A stretch of DNA of 64,000 nucleotides from Gemmatimonadaceae bacterium. GTDB lineage: Bacteria; Gemmatimonadota; Gemmatimonadetes; Gemmatimonadales; Gemmatimonadaceae. The stretch is from NCBI GenBank assembly GCA_036496605.1, contig DASXKV010000067.1, forward strand, positions 1 to 64,000, given 5' to 3'. Position 1 is the first letter of the stretch. Each line of letters starts with the position of its first letter. Below, piece after piece: positions 42,958-51,791 of this stretch. Under the pieces are notes generated by a model. The model ran no database searches, had not been told where the DNA came from, and worked only from the letters and a program-made list of their open reading frames with translations. The translations under genes and the position numbers were made by a program.

Positions 42958-43078
42958 GTTTCGGCTGGGAGGAATGGATGTCCGCTTGCCAGGAGATCGC
43001 GGTGGGGCTTGCATCAACCGCTGAAGAACACAAACAATGCGGGGCACCGCGGAACAAAGCAATAAGGACGAATCGTCG

Positions 43079-44383
43079 ATGGCAGCCAAAGAAGCAGTCG
43101 AAGTCCTCGAGGTCGACGGCCGCGAAGTCCGCGTGACGCACCCGGACAAGCTCTACTTCTCGCGCGCCGTTAGGCTGACGAAGCTCGAGCTCGTGCAATA
43201 CTACCTTTCCGTCGCCGAGGGCGCGCTCAACGGCATACGCGACCGGCCGATCGTACTGAAGCGCTTCGTCCACGGCGCCGAGGGTGAGCCATTCTATCAG
43301 AAGCGCGCGCCGGAGAACCATCCCAATTGGCTCCGCACAGTTACGCTGTCGTTTCCCTCGGGGCGCACGGCCGAAGAAATCGTCGTCGACGACGCCGCGG
43401 GGCTCGCGTGGGTCGTCAACCTTGGTTGCATCGAGTTGCACCCGCACCCGGTGCGAACGGAGGATCTCGATAACCCCGACGAGTTGCGCATCGACCTCGA
43501 TCCTGGTCCGGGGGTGGAGTGGGCGGACGTGCGGCGCGTGGCGATGGAGGCGAAAGCGCTCCTCGAGGAGCTGGGCCTTCGCGGTTGGCCGAAGACGAGC
43601 GGATCGCGTGGCATGCACGTCAACGTGCGCATCCATCCGCGCTGGAGCTTCAGCGAGGTGAGGCGCGCCGCGCTTGCTTTCTCGCGTGAGATCGAGCGAC
43701 GCGCGCCGACGCTCGCGACCTCGAAATGGTGGAAGGAAGAGCGCCGCGGCGTCTTTCTCGACTACAATCAGAACGCGAAGGATCGGACGACGTGCTCGGC
43801 GTACTCCGTGCGGCCGCTGCCGGACGCGCGCGTCTCCACGCCTTTGTGCTGGGAGGAGATCCCTGATTGTGACCCCGCCGACTTCACGGTCGCGACCGTT
43901 CCGGCACGGGTTGCCTCGTTAGGCGATCCGAACGCGACGATGGACCGGGCCGCCGGTTCGCTCGAGGCGCTCCTCGAGCTCGCGGCGCGGGACGAGGCCG
44001 CGGGACTCGGCGACGCGCCATGGCCGCCGCACTTTCGCAAGACGGAGGGTGAAGCGCCGCGGGTAGCGCCCTCGCGTGCCAAAGGCGCACCGAGGAAGCC
44101 GCGCACAAAGATGCCGCTCATCACGGTCGCCAACTCGCCTAACAAGGATGCGGCGCTCGCGGGACTCGCGCGCTGGAAGGCGCGCCATCCGACGGCGGCG
44201 GCACTCCTTGCCGTCGACGACGTGCTCGTCGACTCGATGCGCGGCCGCTCGTCGACCTGGACGCGTATTCGCGTCAATCTGCGGCACGTCCCCGAAGAGA
44301 TCAGGCCACCGCAAGAGACGCCCGATCCCGATGACGATCCCACTCGCGCGTGGCGCGAGCAGTGGAAACGAGGCCGGATGTAA
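43079..44383 (+). CDS. LigD-type DNA polymerase/primase domain protein (NHEJ)
   Basis: 434 residues from the ATG at 43079 (an ATG at 43037 adds 14 residues). It is the archaeo-eukaryotic primase-like Pol domain of bacterial LigD: VTHPDKLYFSRAVRLTKLELVQYY, then catalytic acidic pair in LRIDLDPGPGVEW, the nucleotide-contact TSGSRGMHV, the third acid in RGVFLDYNQNAKDRTTCSAYSVR, and STPLCWEEI. In double-strand break repair it fills gaps, preferring ribonucleotides. Here it is a separate gene; the ligase part is 3.5 kb away on the other strand, and no Ku gene is in the window. The C-terminal 130 residues are a basic, unrecognised extension. Confidence 0.9.
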   Translation: MAAKEAVEVLEVDGREVRVTHPDKLYFSRAVRLTKLELVQYYLSVAEGALNGIRDRPIVLKRFVHGAEGEPFYQKRAPENHPNWLRTVTLSFPSGRTAEEIVVDDAAGLAWVVNLGCIELHPHPVRTEDLDNPDELRIDLDPGPGVEWADVRRVAMEAKALLEELGLRGWPKTSGSRGMHVNVRIHPRWSFSEVRRAALAFSREIERRAPTLATSKWWKEERRGVFLDYNQNAKDRTTCSAYSVRPLPDARVSTPLCWEEIPDCDPADFTVATVPARVASLGDPNATMDRAAGSLEALLELAARDEAAGLGDAPWPPHFRKTEGEAPRVAPSRAKGAPRKPRTKMPLITVANSPNKDAALAGLARWKARHPTAAALLAVDDVLVDSMRGRSSTWTRIRVNLRHVPEEIRPPQETPDPDDDPTRAWREQWKRGRM

Positions 44384-44472
44384 AGAGTGCGTGTAAAAAG
44401 CTCTTATTGGAGCTACATTAGCCGCCCCCCGTTGACGCGACCCACTGCGTGCCCATTCACCGGAGACGAGTC

Positions 44473-47400
44473 ATGCGTCCGATTCGCGCCGTCGCGCTGG
44501 CCATCCTTGCCGCGACATTGCCAGGCCTTACGACGGCATCGGCACAACAACTGGCCGGGAAATCCGATACGACGAAAAAGACAGCGCCCAACAGCGAGCT
44601 TCCCATCCTTCCGGCGCGTCAGGCGTCGTTCGCGACCGACGAGGGCACCTGGATGTCCCTCGATGTGTCGCCGGATGGCAGGAACGTCGTGTTCGATCTC
44701 GTCGGCGATCTGTACAGCGTGCCCATCGCCGGCGGCAAGGCGACGCGCCTAACGAGCGGAATGGGCTTCGATGGCCAGCCTCGCTATTCGCCCGACGGCA
44801 AGTCGATCGTCTTCGTCTCCGATCGCAGCGGGTACGAGAATCTCTGGCTCGTCGATGCCGACGGACGCAATCCTCGCGCGATCACGAAGGACAAAGATGC
44901 GCAGTACATCTCGCCGGCATGGACACCGGATGGCCAATACCTCGTGGTGTCGCGGACGAAAGCCGGCATCCTCGGCAGCCGGTACGATCTCGTTCTGATG
45001 AACAAGGATGGTGGCACCGGTGTGCAGCTCACGGGGCCGGGCAGCGGTGCCGCGCCGAGTGGGCCGCCGGATCCACTCCTGCCGCCGCCGTACAACAACT
45101 ACCTCGGCGCCGTCGTCTCGCCTGACAACCGCTACATCTATTCGGCGATCAAACGCGGCGGCTTCAAATACGATCAGATGCTCGAGGACCGCTGGCAGAT
45201 CGGCGTCTACGATCGGACCACGGGAAAGACATATCTGCGCACGACGAGCCTCGGTGGGGGCATGCGGCCATCGGTGAGCCCAGATGGTAAATGGCTTGCG
45301 TTCGGCTCGCGAGTCGATCACCAGACCGCACTCCGGTTGCGCAGTCTCTCATCCGGCGACGAGCTCTGGCTCGCGCGTGACATCCAGCGCGACGACTCGG
45401 AGTCGCGTTACACACGCGATCTGCTCCCGGGTTACGCCTGGACGCCGGATTCGAGGAGCGTCGTCATCACGTACGGGGGCAAGCTGTGGCGCGTCAGCGT
45501 GGCGGACGGCAAGGCGAGCCCAATTCCGTTCAGCGCCGACGTCCAGATCGACATGGGACCGCTCGTCAAATCACAGTACGCCGTCGACGATTCCGTGCTC
45601 ACCATCAAGCAGATTCGCAACGCGCGGCCGTCGCCGGATGGTCGGCGTCTCGTCTTCACGGCACTCGACAAGCTCTGGATGATGGACCTGCCTAACGGCA
45701 GGCCGCGCCGCATGACCACGTCGACGGCGGGCGAGCACTCGCCGGCCTGGTCGCCCGACGGCCGCTGGGTCGCGTACGTCACCTGGACGGAACAGGGTGG
45801 CGACGTCTGGCGCCTCTCGCCGGCCACGCCGAACGCGCGCCCCGAGCGTCTGTCGCGTCAGACGGCATTTTACGAGAATCTCAACTACGATCCAACCGGC
45901 CGTCGAATCGTCGTCGTCCGCGGACCGCGCGAGGAGCGCATCGCGAAGACGGACGAGTTCACCGGACCGGGACCACAGGTGAAGGAGCTCGTCTGGCTGC
46001 CGGCGGCGGGCGGTGAAATCACGCAAATCGCGCCGCTGAACTATTTCTACGGTCGGCCACATTTCACGCGCGATACGACGCGCGTGTTCATCTACGATCC
46101 CACCGAAGGCGTCGTCTCGATGCGCTGGGACGGCACGGATCGCAAAGCGCACGTCAAGATCACGGGCTATACGGATCCGCTCGGCGGTCCGGAGGCGCGG
46201 CCCGGACCGGCGAACGAGGTCGTGCTCAGCCCTGATGGCGAGCAGGCGTTCGCGGACATCGACAATAAGCTGTATCTGGTCGCCGTTCCGGTCACCGGCG
46301 GTGCAACGCCGACGATCAGCATCTCGAATCCTTCGGCGGCGAGCGTCCCCGTGCGGCGGTTGTCGCGCGTCGGCGGCGATTTCCTCGGCTGGACGCAGGA
46401 CGGCAGGTCGCTCTACTGGTCGTTAGGCCATTCCTATTTTGCGTACGACGTCGCGACGGCATCGCGAGCGATCCTGGACTCGACGCGGCGCGCCGATAGC
46501 CTGGAGCGCGCCGGCGCGAAACCGGACACGTCGGCGGCAACGAAGAAACCGGCATACTCGCCCTCTCGTCTCGACGTGACGATCACGACGACGAAGGACC
46601 GGCCGACCGGCTCGATCGTGCTACGCAATGCGCGCATCGTGACGATGAAGGGCAACGAGGTCATCGAGCACGGCGACATCGTCGTGACCAACAATCGCAT
46701 CAGCGCGGTCGGGCCGGCAGGAAGCCTAACGATACCAGCGGGTGCTCGCGCGATCGATGTCACCGGAACGACCATCATTCCGGGTTGGGTCGATATACAC
46801 GCTCATATGTGGCCAACGTGGGGAATCCATAAGACGCAAGTGTATGAATATCTCGTCAACCTCGCGTACGGCGTGACGACGACGCGCGATCCGCAGACGT
46901 CGACGACGGACGTGCTCTCGTACGGCGATCTCGTCGAGACGGGAGACATGGTCGGTCCGCGCATCTTCACCACAGGACCGGGCGTCTTCTGGTCGGACGA
47001 GATCGCGAGCGCCGACGACGCGCGCGAAGTACTCACGCGCTACTCGGATTTCTATCAGACGCATACGCTCAAGCAATACATGTCCGGCCAGCGCATGATC
47101 CGTCAGTGGATCCTCATCGCCGCAAAGGAGCAGCACATCACGCCGACGCTCGAGGGGGGGCTCGACTTCAAGAAGAACCTCACCGAGGCAATCGACGGCT
47201 ACGCGGGAAGCGAGCACGCCTATCCGATCACGCCGCTCTTCAAGGATATCGTCAACGTCGTTGCGCAGAGTGGCATCACGTACACGCCGACGCTGATCGT
47301 TCAATATGGTGGGCCATTCGCCGAGGACTACTGGTTCGAGCATTACGACATTCATTCCGACGCGAAGCTACAGCGCTTCACGCCCCACGCGGAGCTCGAC

Positions 47401-47838
47401 CGCCGCGGTTTACGACGTCCCGCCTGGTTCGCCGACAGCGAGTACAGCTTCAATCAGATTGCGGCGCAGGCGGCGAAGATCGTCGCGGCCGGCGGCCGCG
47501 TCGGGCTCGGTGGTCACGGCGAGATGCAGGGTCTCGGCGTGCACTGGGAACTGTGGAGCATCGCCAGCGGTGGGATGCCGAACCACGACGTCCTTCGCGT
47601 CGGCACGATCTTCGGCGCCGAGGCAATCGGCGTCGGCAAGGATCTGGGATCGATCGAGGCCGGGAAGCTCGCAGACTTACAGGTGCTCGATAAGAATCCG
47701 CTCGACAACATCCGGAATACGACATCGATCCGGTACGTGATGAAGAACGGGCGATTGTACGACGGGAACACCCTCGCCGAAGTCGCGCCGCGCACGAAGA
47801 ATCTCGATCGGATGTGGTGGGTGATTACGCACGAATAG
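44473..47838 (+). CDS. Secreted TolB-like beta-propeller fused to an amidohydrolase
   Basis: 1121 residues. The signal peptide (LAILAATLPGLTTASAQQ) is followed by WD40-like PD40 repeats, for example MSLDVSPDGRNVVFDLVGDL, PRYSPDGKSIVFVSD, PAWTPDGQYLVVSR and PSPDGRRLVFTALDKL. The C-terminal 400 residues are a metal-dependent amidohydrolase, starting GSIVLRNARIVTMKGNEVIEHGDIVVTNNRI, with the HxH pair in GWVDIHAHMW and a late GGHGEMQGLG. This TolB-amidohydrolase fusion is a recurrent periplasmic protein in soil bacteria; it may cleave peptides or imidic bonds, but no substrate is known. The gene ends 70 bases before the ligase gene's stop, with a G-rich repeat between them. Confidence 0.92.
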   Translation: MRPIRAVALAILAATLPGLTTASAQQLAGKSDTTKKTAPNSELPILPARQASFATDEGTWMSLDVSPDGRNVVFDLVGDLYSVPIAGGKATRLTSGMGFDGQPRYSPDGKSIVFVSDRSGYENLWLVDADGRNPRAITKDKDAQYISPAWTPDGQYLVVSRTKAGILGSRYDLVLMNKDGGTGVQLTGPGSGAAPSGPPDPLLPPPYNNYLGAVVSPDNRYIYSAIKRGGFKYDQMLEDRWQIGVYDRTTGKTYLRTTSLGGGMRPSVSPDGKWLAFGSRVDHQTALRLRSLSSGDELWLARDIQRDDSESRYTRDLLPGYAWTPDSRSVVITYGGKLWRVSVADGKASPIPFSADVQIDMGPLVKSQYAVDDSVLTIKQIRNARPSPDGRRLVFTALDKLWMMDLPNGRPRRMTTSTAGEHSPAWSPDGRWVAYVTWTEQGGDVWRLSPATPNARPERLSRQTAFYENLNYDPTGRRIVVVRGPREERIAKTDEFTGPGPQVKELVWLPAAGGEITQIAPLNYFYGRPHFTRDTTRVFIYDPTEGVVSMRWDGTDRKAHVKITGYTDPLGGPEARPGPANEVVLSPDGEQAFADIDNKLYLVAVPVTGGATPTISISNPSAASVPVRRLSRVGGDFLGWTQDGRSLYWSLGHSYFAYDVATASRAILDSTRRADSLERAGAKPDTSAATKKPAYSPSRLDVTITTTKDRPTGSIVLRNARIVTMKGNEVIEHGDIVVTNNRISAVGPAGSLTIPAGARAIDVTGTTIIPGWVDIHAHMWPTWGIHKTQVYEYLVNLAYGVTTTRDPQTSTTDVLSYGDLVETGDMVGPRIFTTGPGVFWSDEIASADDAREVLTRYSDFYQTHTLKQYMSGQRMIRQWILIAAKEQHITPTLEGGLDFKKNLTEAIDGYAGSEHAYPITPLFKDIVNVVAQSGITYTPTLIVQYGGPFAEDYWFEHYDIHSDAKLQRFTPHAELDRRGLRRPAWFADSEYSFNQIAAQAAKIVAAGGRVGLGGHGEMQGLGVHWELWSIASGGMPNHDVLRVGTIFGAEAIGVGKDLGSIEAGKLADLQVLDKNPLDNIRNTTSIRYVMKNGRLYDGNTLAEVAPRTKNLDRMWWVITHE

Positions 47839-47843
47839 TCGGC

Positions 47844-47922
47844 AGAGGGTTTTGGGAGAGGGTTTTGGGCAGAGGGTTGAGGGCAGAAAGCAGAAGGTTT
47901 TTGCACTCTACCCTCTACCCTC
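47844..47922. repeat. G-rich tandem repeat with perfect G-quadruplex motif
   Basis: Two exact copies of AGAGGGTTTTGGG (47844-47856 and 47857-47869) are followed by a related third unit (47871-47883) and then by the complementary CTCTACCCTCTACCCTCC (47905-47922). The first two units contain four GGG runs with loops TTTT, AGA and TTTT (47847-47869), a canonical quadruplex layout. The right part can also pair with the repeats to give a long hairpin. It fills the gap between two convergent genes, so a bidirectional terminator role is plausible. Confidence 0.65.
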
Positions 47923-48993
47923 CGCGAATATCGCCTTCAATTCCTGGGGCGGCACGACTTCCAGCTGGGCGTATGTGCACGCGCGCGGCGGCTTGTCGGG
48001 CCGCCATCGCCGAAACTGCGCCGTGTGCCGGAAGCGGCTGCCTTGCATATGGTCATAGGCCACTTCCGCGACGAGCTCGGGGCGGAGCGGCTCCCACGAG
48101 AGATCCTTCCCCTGACTCCACCGGCTCTGGGCGCCAGGACGCCGATGTGATCCCTCGTTAGGCTCGGCCTCGGCCCAGGCCCGCCACGGATGCTCCTCGA
48201 GCGCGTTCTTTCGATATGCCGCAAGGAACTCCACGAGCTCGTGCCGCTTCTTGTCCGTGAAGCTCGCGCAGACACCGACGTGCTCGAGATTGCCCTCCTC
48301 GTCGTACAGGCCGAGAAGCAGCGAGCCAACTGCTGTGTTCCTGGCGTTCTTGTGCCAGCGAAAACCGGCAACGACACAATCGCAGTCGCGTTCATGTTTC
48401 ACCTTGAGCATCACGCGCTTGTTCGGCTCGTAGATGCCCTCTTCGGGTTTTGCGACGACCCCGTCGAGCCCCGCACCCTCGAAGCGACGGAACCAATCCG
48501 CGGCCGTGGCACGGTCCCGCGTCGCTGGCGTGATGTGGATCGGCGCCTCGGTGTCCGCGAGGACTTTCTCGAGCCGCCTGCGTCGCTTGGCGAATGGAGA
48601 CGTGCGCAGATCCTCATCGCCGACGCAGAGGAGATCGAAGAAGACGACCGAGGCCGGCATCTCCCCGGCGAGCTTCGTCACCCGCGAGGCGGCCGGATGA
48701 AGCCGGAGCTGCAACGCCTCGAAATCGAGGGCATTGCCTAACGCGATGACGAGCTCACCGTCCAGCACACAGCGCTTCGGCAACTGCCTCTTGAGCGGTT
48801 CGATGAGCTCGGGAAAATAGCGATCGAGCGGCTTCTCGTCGCGGCTCTGGATGAACAGCTCGTCGCCATCGCGAAAGATGAGCGCTCGGAAGCCATCCCA
48901 TTTTGGCTCGAAGATCCAACCCTCGCCGGGTGGTAATTCGGCGACGCGGTTGGCGAGCATCGGCAGAATTGGCGGATTGCAGAGGAGGTCCAT
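47908..48993 (-). CDS. ATP-dependent DNA ligase, LigD ligase-domain type
   Basis: 361 residues from the ATG at 48993. The nucleotidyltransferase motif I is EPKWDGFRAL with the adenylated K31, followed by LDGELVI (motif III), EGIYEPNKRVMLKVK (motifs IV-V, KVK) and an OB-fold C-terminus with LELVPPxELKAI-like ending (QLEVVPPQELKAIF). This is the ligase half of LigD, sealing nicks or ends in non-homologous end joining. It stands apart from the polymerase half at 43079. The frame is open 5' to 49290, but that overlaps the histidine kinase on the same strand in another frame. It lies 73 bases downstream of the kinase gene and could be co-transcribed with it. Confidence 0.9.
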   Translation of the reverse strand: MDLLCNPPILPMLANRVAELPPGEGWIFEPKWDGFRALIFRDGDELFIQSRDEKPLDRYFPELIEPLKRQLPKRCVLDGELVIALGNALDFEALQLRLHPAASRVTKLAGEMPASVVFFDLLCVGDEDLRTSPFAKRRRRLEKVLADTEAPIHITPATRDRATAADWFRRFEGAGLDGVVAKPEEGIYEPNKRVMLKVKHERDCDCVVAGFRWHKNARNTAVGSLLLGLYDEEGNLEHVGVCASFTDKKRHELVEFLAAYRKNALEEHPWRAWAEAEPNEGSHRRPGAQSRWSQGKDLSWEPLRPELVAEVAYDHMQGSRFRHTAQFRRWRPDKPPRACTYAQLEVVPPQELKAIFAEGRG

Positions 48994-49066
48994 GCCCAAT
49001 GGTAAGAAGCCGACTCGCGCGGAGCCAGCACCGACTTGGGAAGCGGACATCCGCGCCGACCAGTGC

Positions 49067-50689
49067 TCACGACGCGACTGGCAGCGTGAATTCGAATGTC
49101 GAACCGTGTTCCGCGTTAGGCGTTGCCCAGAGGCGCCCACCGTGTCCCTCGATGATCGATCGACTGATCGAGAGGCCGATGCCCATGCCTCCGGATTTCG
49201 TCGTGTAGAATGCGCTGAACAGCCGGTCCATCTGCCGGGGGGCGATGCCAACGCCGTCGTCCTGCACCGCGACGACGATTCGGTCCTCACAGACCTCCGA
49301 CTGGATCCGGAGCTCTCGACGACGGTCGTCGACGGGATCCATCGCCTCGACGGCGTTCATTACGAGGTTGATGATCACCTGCTGCAGCTGGACGCGATCG
49401 GCGAACACCGATGGGAGCGGCGAGGCCAACGACATGCATAACGACACGCGGTGCTTCTGTATCTCACTCCGAACGAGCGTCGTCACGTCGCGTACGACGT
49501 CGTTGATATTGAGGTACGTCTTCTTCGGGTCGCTCTTGGTGGCGAGTTGCCGGACCCGCTGGATCACGTCAGCCGCTCGGTGTCCGTCCTTGACAATATC
49601 GGCGAGTGCCTCGCGCGCCCGCTCGAGCTTCGCGTCCGGCCTGCTCAGCCAGTTGAGCGACGCCGTGGCGTTGGCCACGATCGCCGTCAGCGGCTGATTG
49701 ATCTCGTGCGCGATCGACGCCGCCATCTCGCCGAGCATCGTGAGGCGCGTGACATGCGCGAGCTCCAACTCCGCCTTGCGCAACGCCTCCTCCGCGCGCT
49801 TTCGATCGCTGATGTCCAGGATGTTGGCGACAACGCCCGCCGATCGTCCCTCATCATCGACGAGCGGCGCGCACGCGAGTGTCGCGTCGAATTCCGATCC
49901 ATCCTTCCGCGTCATCCGGATCTCGATCCCGGAAAACGCGTGACCGTCGCCAAGCGGCGCCCACCGCTCCTCGATGGTCTCCGTCAACGGAATGCGCTGG
50001 CCGACGACTTCATTGGCGCCCAAGCCGACGAGTCGCTCGAACGCGGAATTGCAACGCTGCACCGTCCGGTCTCGCCGGACGAGGACCATGGCAACCGGTG
50101 AGGCATCGAGAATCGTCTGCAGCTCGGCGCCGGCGCGGCGCAGCTCACCCGTCCGTTCCGCCACCTTGGTCTCGAGCTCGTCGCGAGCCTGTCGTAGCCG
50201 ATCCTCCGTGGTGCGCAGGTCGTGCACGAGCTGCGCGCTCTGAAACGCCAACGCGGCGTGATTCGTCGCAACGGAGAGCAGCAACTGATCGGTCTCGGTG
50301 GGGAAGTCATTGCGATCGGAGGCGACGGCGGCGACGCCACCGAGCCCGTCGAAGCCAATTGGAGCGATGAGGCCACGACGCGGCTTCGCGCCGCCACCGA
50401 TATCCGGAATGACCTGCTTGAACAGCTTTCGCCGGTCGCTGGCGAGTCGACTCTCGAGCCAACTCGGAAATGTCTTCCATGCGTCACCGCGCGACGCGTC
50501 GACTGGAGCGTGGCCCCCGTGATCGTTCAGGCGAACGAAAACAAAGTCGAGCTGTAGCGCACCGATCAGGACGTCAGCAAGTCCGGTCGCGATCGTCTGC
50601 GGTTCTCTGCCTGCCCACGCGGCTGGGAGTGTCGAGAGCGCAACGAGATCCCGTAGCGCGACTCGCAGGCGCCGTACCTCAGGGAGCAT
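49067..50689 (-). CDS. GAF-like/PAS sensor histidine kinase
   Basis: 540 residues. Domains in order: a GAF-like sensor (about 20-155, FGQSAQ-type end at LAFQSAQLVHDL), a coiled-coil linker, PAS (about 190-300, LDASPVAMVLVRRDRTVQRCNSAFERLVG), HisKA with phosphoacceptor H328 in ASIAHEINQPLTAIVANA, and HATPase_c with N box N445 (INLVMNAVEAM), G1 DDGVGIAP and G2 GMGIGLSISRSIIEGHGG. No membrane segment is seen, so it is a soluble kinase. The start ATG lies four bases after the stop of the REC-MEDS gene, which is its probable partner. The HEINQPL signature marks the FixL/DctB-like kinase class that often senses redox or small molecules. Confidence 0.93.
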   Translation of the reverse strand: MLPEVRRLRVALRDLVALSTLPAAWAGREPQTIATGLADVLIGALQLDFVFVRLNDHGGHAPVDASRGDAWKTFPSWLESRLASDRRKLFKQVIPDIGGGAKPRRGLIAPIGFDGLGGVAAVASDRNDFPTETDQLLLSVATNHAALAFQSAQLVHDLRTTEDRLRQARDELETKVAERTGELRRAGAELQTILDASPVAMVLVRRDRTVQRCNSAFERLVGLGANEVVGQRIPLTETIEERWAPLGDGHAFSGIEIRMTRKDGSEFDATLACAPLVDDEGRSAGVVANILDISDRKRAEEALRKAELELAHVTRLTMLGEMAASIAHEINQPLTAIVANATASLNWLSRPDAKLERAREALADIVKDGHRAADVIQRVRQLATKSDPKKTYLNINDVVRDVTTLVRSEIQKHRVSLCMSLASPLPSVFADRVQLQQVIINLVMNAVEAMDPVDDRRRELRIQSEVCEDRIVVAVQDDGVGIAPRQMDRLFSAFYTTKSGGMGIGLSISRSIIEGHGGRLWATPNAEHGSTFEFTLPVAS

Positions 50690-50693
50690 CGTA

Positions 50694-51791
50694 CTAACTC
50701 GTTGTCGACGCGTTCGCCCGCCCGCACGATCGATCTCTGATCTCGACGAGGAACTGCTCGGGCGAGACGAAGAAGGGATTCTCCTGCAAGACGCCACCGA
50801 TGATCACCATCGGATGCGTGCGCAGGACGTCCATGACGACGCTCGCGCTGAACTTCGAGAGATCGTACGCGCAGATGACCGGTGTGTGATGTTGGGACAG
50901 CAGTCGGTTGGCGCGCGCCTCGTACTCGACCAGATCCTCGACACCTGGCTTGTCGAGCAAGGCCCACTCCATGTGCGCAACGACGCGCGTGCGTCCCGAA
51001 TCCGACGCCTCGTTCGCGCGCAGCATCGCTTCGACATAGGCCAACATGGAGTCCTGGTCGAAGCGTTCGTCGCGCAGGTAGGCATCGGCCCAAGGGTGCA
51101 CTGCCAATTGCCCCGTGGCCATCGCCTGCTCGACGTCGACCCCCTCCTCGCGGAGCCACCGCAGGTGATCGTCGCGCCTGTCCGGATCGACAATGTGAAC
51201 GCTCTTTTCGCCCGCATCGAGTCCGTCCTTCACGAACGAGCGTAGCACGCGATGTTCCTCGTCGGCTCCGTTGAAAAACGCGCAGATGTGACAGTGATTT
51301 TCGAGGATGTGCCCAGCGAACTGGATTGAGCCGTTGCTCGTTAGGTTCTCATTCTCGTTTTGCGACGTGCTCGAACGATTCGCTGGAGCATCGGTCGCCG
51401 CGCGTGCCCTTACTGGCAGCGTTGACGCGGCGCGCGCTACGGCGTGGAGCAGTGCGTCGCTCTGGAATGGCTTCTCGAGGAACGCGATCGCTCCAGCGCG
51501 AAGACAACGTCGTCGCGTTTCATCGTCACCGTGTCCGGTGAGCACGATGGCTGGGTGCGGTGCACCAATGGACGTGAGCTGACCCAGTAGCTCCATGCCA
51601 CCCATGCCGGGCATTCGGAGGTCCAGGACGAGACAGCAGGGGATTGCCAGGTATTCGCTCGCGAGAAAGGCCTCGGCTGAACCGAACGTCTCGACCTGGA
51701 CTCCGACCGACGTCAAGAGATTTCTGAGCGACCGGCGAAGAGATTCATCGTCGTCGACTATGCAAACGACATCGTTGTCGTGCGTAGCCAT
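50694..51791 (-). CDS. Response regulator with REC domain fused to a MEDS sensory domain
   Basis: 365 residues from the ATG at 51791. The REC domain (1-125) has the acidic cluster D13-D15, phosphoacceptor D57 in LVLDLRMPGMGG, T85 and K107 in FLEKPF. After a Ser/Asn-rich linker, residues of about 160-345 are a MEDS domain (HICAFFNGADEEHRVLRSFVKDGLDAGEKSVHIVDP ... VICAYDLSKFSASVVMDVLRTHP), related to the DcmR sensor of methanogens and methylotrophs. No DNA-binding helix-turn-helix or enzyme domain is present, so the output route is unclear; the MEDS part may bind a hydrophobic or flavin-like ligand or a partner protein. It is translated just before its histidine kinase. Confidence 0.9.
   Translation of the reverse strand: MATHDNDVVCIVDDDESLRRSLRNLLTSVGVQVETFGSAEAFLASEYLAIPCCLVLDLRMPGMGGMELLGQLTSIGAPHPAIVLTGHGDDETRRRCLRAGAIAFLEKPFQSDALLHAVARAASTLPVRARAATDAPANRSSTSQNENENLTSNGSIQFAGHILENHCHICAFFNGADEEHRVLRSFVKDGLDAGEKSVHIVDPDRRDDHLRWLREEGVDVEQAMATGQLAVHPWADAYLRDERFDQDSMLAYVEAMLRANEASDSGRTRVVAHMEWALLDKPGVEDLVEYEARANRLLSQHHTPVICAYDLSKFSASVVMDVLRTHPMVIIGGVLQENPFFVSPEQFLVEIRDRSCGRANASTTS

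Follow-up and report, generated by a model that had tools for sequence, protein, structure and literature searches.

What can a two-component response regulator do when its receiver is joined to a MEDS domain and to nothing that resembles an output? MEDS is known mostly as a predicted hydrocarbon-sensing domain, and the question is raised by a kinase-regulator gene pair in the window, by which we mean the whole 64,000-nucleotide stretch of DNA analyzed here. The pair is real, with frames and Pfam domains intact, and its parts are the following.

50694 to 51791, minus strand: REC-MEDS protein, 365 amino acids, from ATG at 51791 to the stop at 50694 (Pfam Response_reg and MEDS, reading frame, residues).
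51417 to 51776, minus strand: FixJ-like receiver domain (Pfam; residues D57, the acceptor, T85, and K107).
50730 to 51290, minus strand: MEDS domain with conserved C-terminal tail (NPFF..P), predicted KaiC-like fold without a P-loop (Pfam, model).
51282 to 51284, minus strand: codon of Cys170 in the motif H-[IV]-C-A-F-F (HICAFF in the window); Cys in all 79 readable sequences of 80 related loci.
50871 to 50873, minus strand: codon of Cys307 in the motif VICxYD (VICAYD in the window); TGA in 16 of 80 relatives.
49067 to 50689, minus strand: FixL-like histidine kinase, 540 amino acids, from ATG at 50689 to the stop at 49067 (domains; H-box HEINQP at residue 328).
50210 to 50680, minus strand: GAF-like N-terminal domain of the kinase, common to kinases that follow MEDS genes (profile comparisons).

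The REC-MEDS gene comes first and the kinase gene next, with 4 nt between the stop of the former and the start of the latter. The longest kinase ORF begins at GTG 50797; because the conserved kinase N-terminus begins at 50689, the two genes are probably non-overlapping, and we regard their overlap as an artifact of taking the longest ORF. With the queries used, no further REC, MEDS, or kinase ORFs were found in the window, and a gene for an output regulator is absent from it. The kinase is closely followed on its strand by a LigD-type DNA ligase (47908 to 49290, minus strand), with a LigD primase-polymerase on the opposite strand (43037 to 44383, plus strand), the LigD parts being separate genes; at 44449 to 47838 (plus strand), a 1,129-amino-acid protein combines WD40-like PD40 repeats with an amidohydrolase domain.

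The receiver half of the fusion matches Pfam Response_reg (PF00072) at 2.2e-23 and keeps every canonical residue (D13/D14, D57, T85, and K107), and the kinase may transfer its phosphoryl group to D57. Its best structural matches are the receivers of StyR and FixJ. Against the NCBIfam FixJ model (NF006900), the score of 1.8e-33 and 115.8 bits stems from the receiver part only and stays below the cut-off of 255, and Pfam finds no GerE (LuxR-type) domain in the protein, which we therefore do not assign to FixJ. The MEDS half matches PF14417 at 5.5e-44 over profile positions 2 to 161 of 161 (150.3 bits, cut-off 29.8) and is followed by 38 residues that are mostly the conserved MEDS tail (ENPFFVSPEQFL...) common to the relatives. 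The initial annotation had described a REC-MEDS fusion without DNA-binding or enzymatic output beside a kinase, and had named a hidden C-terminal helix-turn-helix as what would speak against this description. The Pfam domains bear the description out, and no such helix-turn-helix was found at the C-terminus, either by Pfam or in the structure model, since only the MEDS tail and a few residues, with no other domain, follow the MEDS match.

To place the fusion in a broader context, we turned to the relatives of its MEDS domain. A MEDS alignment was used for a single scan of 84,980 species genomes, which yielded the 80 loci of the closest relatives, many in metagenome bins, with 46 to 66% identity to the window MEDS. 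They come from Acidobacteriota, Pseudomonadota, Rokuibacteriota, Planctomycetota, Verrucomicrobiota, Gemmatimonadota, Chloroflexota, Nitrospirota, Myxococcota, and Actinomycetota, and because they span so many phyla, the earlier description of MEDS as methane-related is too narrow. In 74 of the 80 loci, a standalone MEDS gene immediately precedes a kinase that shares a homologous N-terminus with the window kinase; among the remaining six, four reach or come near a contig end, one (L109) has its kinase divergently upstream, and one (L097) has no kinase nearby. The association also holds in the reverse direction: across 179 genomes of the same family, only 37 of which have a MEDS match over the cut-off, the eight strongest matches to the kinase N-terminal domain (E ≤ 1e-20) all adjoin a MEDS gene, and three weaker matches do not. 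The window pair shares this arrangement, with its MEDS gene directly upstream of a kinase that carries the GAF-like N-terminal domain. As a separate observation, two loci (L018 and L019) hold tandem MEDS genes, each with what looks by eye like an N-terminal excisionase-like helix-turn-helix.

The output of these modules, where it can be seen, is encoded separately. Most of the 80 loci have no regulator directly downstream; a downstream receiver ORF is present in 17, with GerE found by Pfam in the longer ones tested, REC-LuxR regulators come after the kinase in several, and 11 have hybrid kinases. The genome of the window itself contains a second MEDS-kinase module on contig C62 (L033, 574 to 7368) with a FixJ-type regulator and, some 2.6 kb downstream on the other strand, a single receiver, and on contig C54 a MEDS-kinase fusion in one chain (L003). 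Since MEDS precedes the kinase and the output of relatives, where seen, runs through a separate REC-LuxR protein, MEDS appears to serve the kinase as its sensory partner. Of the earlier proposal that MEDS takes the place of an output domain, the absence of an output domain stands, whereas the substitution itself is disfavored by the gene order in relatives (74 of 80). Judged by sequence comparison, the window pair most likely represents one version of a two-gene sensory module that is widespread, with MEDS as its likely input half.

The same gene order weighs on the best-surviving alternative, namely, that REC-MEDS is an effector in which phosphorylation of the receiver switches MEDS to bind an unknown partner, with the kinase having no other target. 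The pairing of a FixL-like kinase with a FixJ-like receiver and the lack of any other regulator in the window speak for this reading, as does the annotation of RsbA-type MEDS proteins as anti-sigma regulators, part of whose NCBIfam profile (NF041045) the window MEDS matches at 1.2e-18. That match, however, is far below the cut-off (67.4 versus 210 bits) and gives no membership in the family, and in relatives a standalone MEDS precedes the kinase without any REC domain, so that we consider an effector role unlikely.

The fold of the MEDS domain fits a sensor or an adaptor. In a structure search with the full-length REC-MEDS model, the matches were filled by receivers, and MEDS was therefore modeled alone (mean pLDDT of 90). 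The resulting model matches KaiC and FlaH with Z scores of 13 to 15 over about 175 residues, so that, as modeled, MEDS has a KaiC/RecA-like fold. A sequence search returned no significant MEDS relative in the PDB, and reading the window MEDS directly revealed no Walker A motif GxxxxGK[ST] after its first strand (HICAFFNGADEEHRVL). Both the match and the missing motif concern a domain previously described as an inactivated KaiC-like domain (PMC5847659), with which the KaiC-like match of our model agrees.

Two cysteines, C170 and C307, are invariant in the MEDS alignment, and the second of them led to the more surprising result of this work, although it lies outside the window. The C307 position is Cys or TGA in 80 of 80 loci: in the 16 loci with a stop at this codon, all of them metagenome bins, the stop is invariably TGA rather than TAA or TAG, and the matched domain is otherwise free of stops. 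Two later genome searches added six distinct TGA forms, for a total of 22, listed here.

TGA forms of the MEDS cysteine: L061, L062, L064, L066 to L068, L070 to L074, L077, L078, L093, L097, L104, L145, L148, L154, L158, L159, L161.

A further candidate, L149, was rejected as it is a Cys form whose TGA lies elsewhere, and one Rokuibacteriota genome (G189) was seen to hold three TGA-form MEDS genes (L153, L159, and L161). A nonsense mutation or pseudogene does not account for the pattern in the first 80 loci, where the stop is always TGA, affects one codon only, and leaves the frame conserved beyond it; nor does reassignment of TGA to a sense codon, given that TGA also seems to serve as the terminator of some of these genes.

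Three lines of evidence point instead to selenocysteine (Sec): (i) when the published bacterial SECIS model is applied with its rules for loop, stem, and spacing, a hairpin with 16 nt spacing and an AGUU loop follows the TGA in 15 of the 16 forms of the first scan, whereas under an identical energy limit only 8 of 64 Cys forms have one (Fisher 1e-9, a value that, like any p-value for these related loci, overstates the difference); (ii) the Phe codon is TTT in 15 of 16 TGA forms compared to 18 of 58 Cys forms; and (iii) SelA is present in all 15 TGA-form genomes checked compared to 8 of 16 Cys-form genomes at full strength, SelB in 14 of 15 compared to 9 of 16, and tRNA-Sec in 13 of 15 TGA-form genomes when counted only below 1e-10, since matches near 1e-8 occur also in genomes without SelA. 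Nearly all of the 22 TGA forms carry a SECIS-like hairpin, and none of the 22 departs from the loop GUU; L148 keeps the SECIS-like stem with different codons. L097, the TGA form without a kinase neighbor, and L158 miss the simple SECIS model, although both contain related sequence, which in L097 adopts a fold with a bulge. Because the SECIS sequence is nearly invariant, its alignment contains hardly any covariation, and a covariation test of the hairpin is uninformative. The tree implies at least five Cys/Sec changes on a weakly supported backbone that is also compatible with a single origin of the Sec form. Taken together, the relatives show the sequence hallmarks of selenoproteins—an in-frame TGA at a conserved cysteine, a SECIS-like element, and Sec machinery—and the TGA-form MEDS proteins probably constitute a selenoprotein family. 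MEDS is absent from the 119-family selenoprotein table of a 2026 review, whose text contains none of the words sensor, two-component, and histidine kinase (PMC13188914), and NCBIfam 20.0 has no selenoprotein model for the two TGA forms tested. Because the window MEDS has a Cys, this evidence bears on it only by homology. Its genome encodes SelA, SelB, and tRNA-Sec (C35, 48656 to 49741; C37, 30866 to 30982; and C9, 6983 to 7075; all in G000) and can therefore probably make selenoproteins, and the MEDS proteins of this genome have no internal stops.

The kinase offers a plausible contact site for such a sensor. Beyond the PAS, HisKA, and HATPase_c domains found by Pfam, its N-terminal domain is weakly GAF-like, with a GAF match below the cut-off; among NCBIfam models the kinase is nearest to FixL (NF041777), with 227.9 bits against a cut-off of 850, too few to make it a member. 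We propose, with moderate confidence, that MEDS is a KaiC-like sensor or adaptor lacking a P-loop, in which C307, replaced by Sec in some relatives, would react with or report on a chemical or redox signal, and that MEDS would act through the GAF-like N-terminal domain of the neighboring kinase. The FixL-like kinase would in turn phosphorylate FixJ-type receivers. A distinct REC-LuxR regulator encoded elsewhere, such as the FixJ-type gene on C62, would carry the transcriptional output, and the receiver fused to MEDS would let the phosphoryl flux of the kinase feed back on, or gate, its own sensor. This feedback role is suggested by the fusion itself and by a small number of unfused receivers next to MEDS genes, clearest in L050 and seen also in L049. 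The same neighbors could instead be taken to mean that REC-MEDS is a phosphate sink, in which the receiver drains phosphoryl groups and MEDS only localizes it to the kinase: single-domain FixJ-like receivers stand beside MEDS and kinase genes in L050, L049, and L077. MEDS, however, retains as much as 66% identity between phyla, a degree of conservation suggestive of more than a tethering role, and we rate a sink as improbable.

The unfused receivers also indicate how the fusion may have arisen. L050 (Rokuibacteriota) has a single receiver 55 nt ahead of its MEDS frame, and two receivers of this locus are those most like the window receiver (65%, and 59% for the one directly upstream of MEDS), just as the window kinase core is most like one of the kinases encoded at L050 (63% identity). 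Unfused receivers occur near MEDS in L049 as well, with more distant ones before MEDS in L072, L073, and L119, and the end of the linker before MEDS in the window (SIQFAG) resembles the N-termini of the standalone MEDS proteins P0002 and P0003. A REC-only gene lying immediately before MEDS, as in Rokubacteria, is the likely precursor, and fusion of the adjacent genes would be the simplest origin of REC-MEDS. A survey of REC-MEDS and its neighbors showed that the MEDS-kinase neighborhood recurs (74 of 80 loci) but did not recover the fusion in other bacteria: none was found in the 179 family genomes, a 395-genome sample of the phylum, the 80 relative loci, or 95 genomes of the Rokuibacteriota, leaving a single bacterial instance among the bacterial genomes searched. 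A recent accident or assembly error without a function of its own would agree with this single occurrence, but we hold it to be very improbable in view of the one open frame, the full set of receiver residues, the coding-like third-position GC of both domains (0.68 in REC and 0.81 in MEDS), and the tight spacing to the kinase.

With these results, the GAF-like domain at the kinase N-terminus becomes a defined genetic partner of MEDS, and C307 a candidate reactive residue that is open to mutation; the repeated use of Sec at this position suggests that reactivity of the residue is what the sensor needs. If confirmed, Sec-form MEDS would add a signaling sensor to the prokaryotic selenoproteins, and the REC fusion offers a direct way to test for feedback onto a sensor. 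Extending this, we tentatively speculate that MEDS modules are Cys/Sec chemical sensors in two-component signaling, beyond the 2026 selenoprotein catalogue, and that the window kinase writes back on its sensor in a closed loop.

Several known systems share parts of this arrangement. The closest in architecture are the REC-MEDS and MEDS-REC proteins of Nitrososphaera and Nitrocosmicus, with the same two domains in one chain; as REC-MEDS is listed for ammonia-oxidizing archaea (PMC5847659), the fusion type is not unique, and the window protein represents a rare version of an already known domain pairing, embedded in a module that recurs. The archaeal proteins are known as architectures and are likened here by description, and the accessible part of that source gives them neither a partner kinase nor a pathway, the latter being what the initial annotation thought could undercut its reading of the fusion; the fusion type itself, in contrast, was already on record. 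Of the NCBIfam models, FixL and FixJ come closest to the window kinase core and receiver, but with both scores below the cut-offs, and in the window protein MEDS stands where FixJ has its LuxR DNA-binding domain. DcmR of Methylobacterium, the founding MEDS member, has the sensory domain in common with the window protein but is a helix-turn-helix regulator, and is likened by description only. MEDS-kinase fusions (archaeal kinases and L003) couple MEDS to a histidine kinase as in the window, but in one polypeptide rather than two and with no receiver, and several lack the first conserved Cys. EtnR1 and EtnR2 of the alkene-oxidizing mycobacteria, a pair in Mycolicibacterium chubuense NBB4 (PMC8784404) that is reported to detect the epoxide (PMC11507031), differ in that EtnR1 is a PucR/CdaR-type DNA-binding protein and not a kinase, and in having no REC domain. 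On plasmid pMYCCH.01, we also noticed a MEDS protein (L140, 3413 to 4555) whose N-terminal part resembles by eye the end of a Ser/Thr kinase, with DFG and APE-like motifs. Yet the layout of the Etn pair is that of the module described here: on plasmids of NBB4 and of Nocardioides sp. JS614, a gene for a MEDS protein lies beside a partner whose N-terminus matches the kinase N-terminal profile (3e-8 for EtnR1 of NBB4 and 2e-6 for JS614, in a set of ten sequences); the MEDS protein of the mycobacterial pair, EtnR2, is standalone and has the conserved Cys. By analogy, the Etn pair, the one system here to do so, suggests electrophiles such as epoxides as the signal, and its shared layout suggests that MEDS goes together with this N-terminal domain in kinases and DNA-binding proteins alike.
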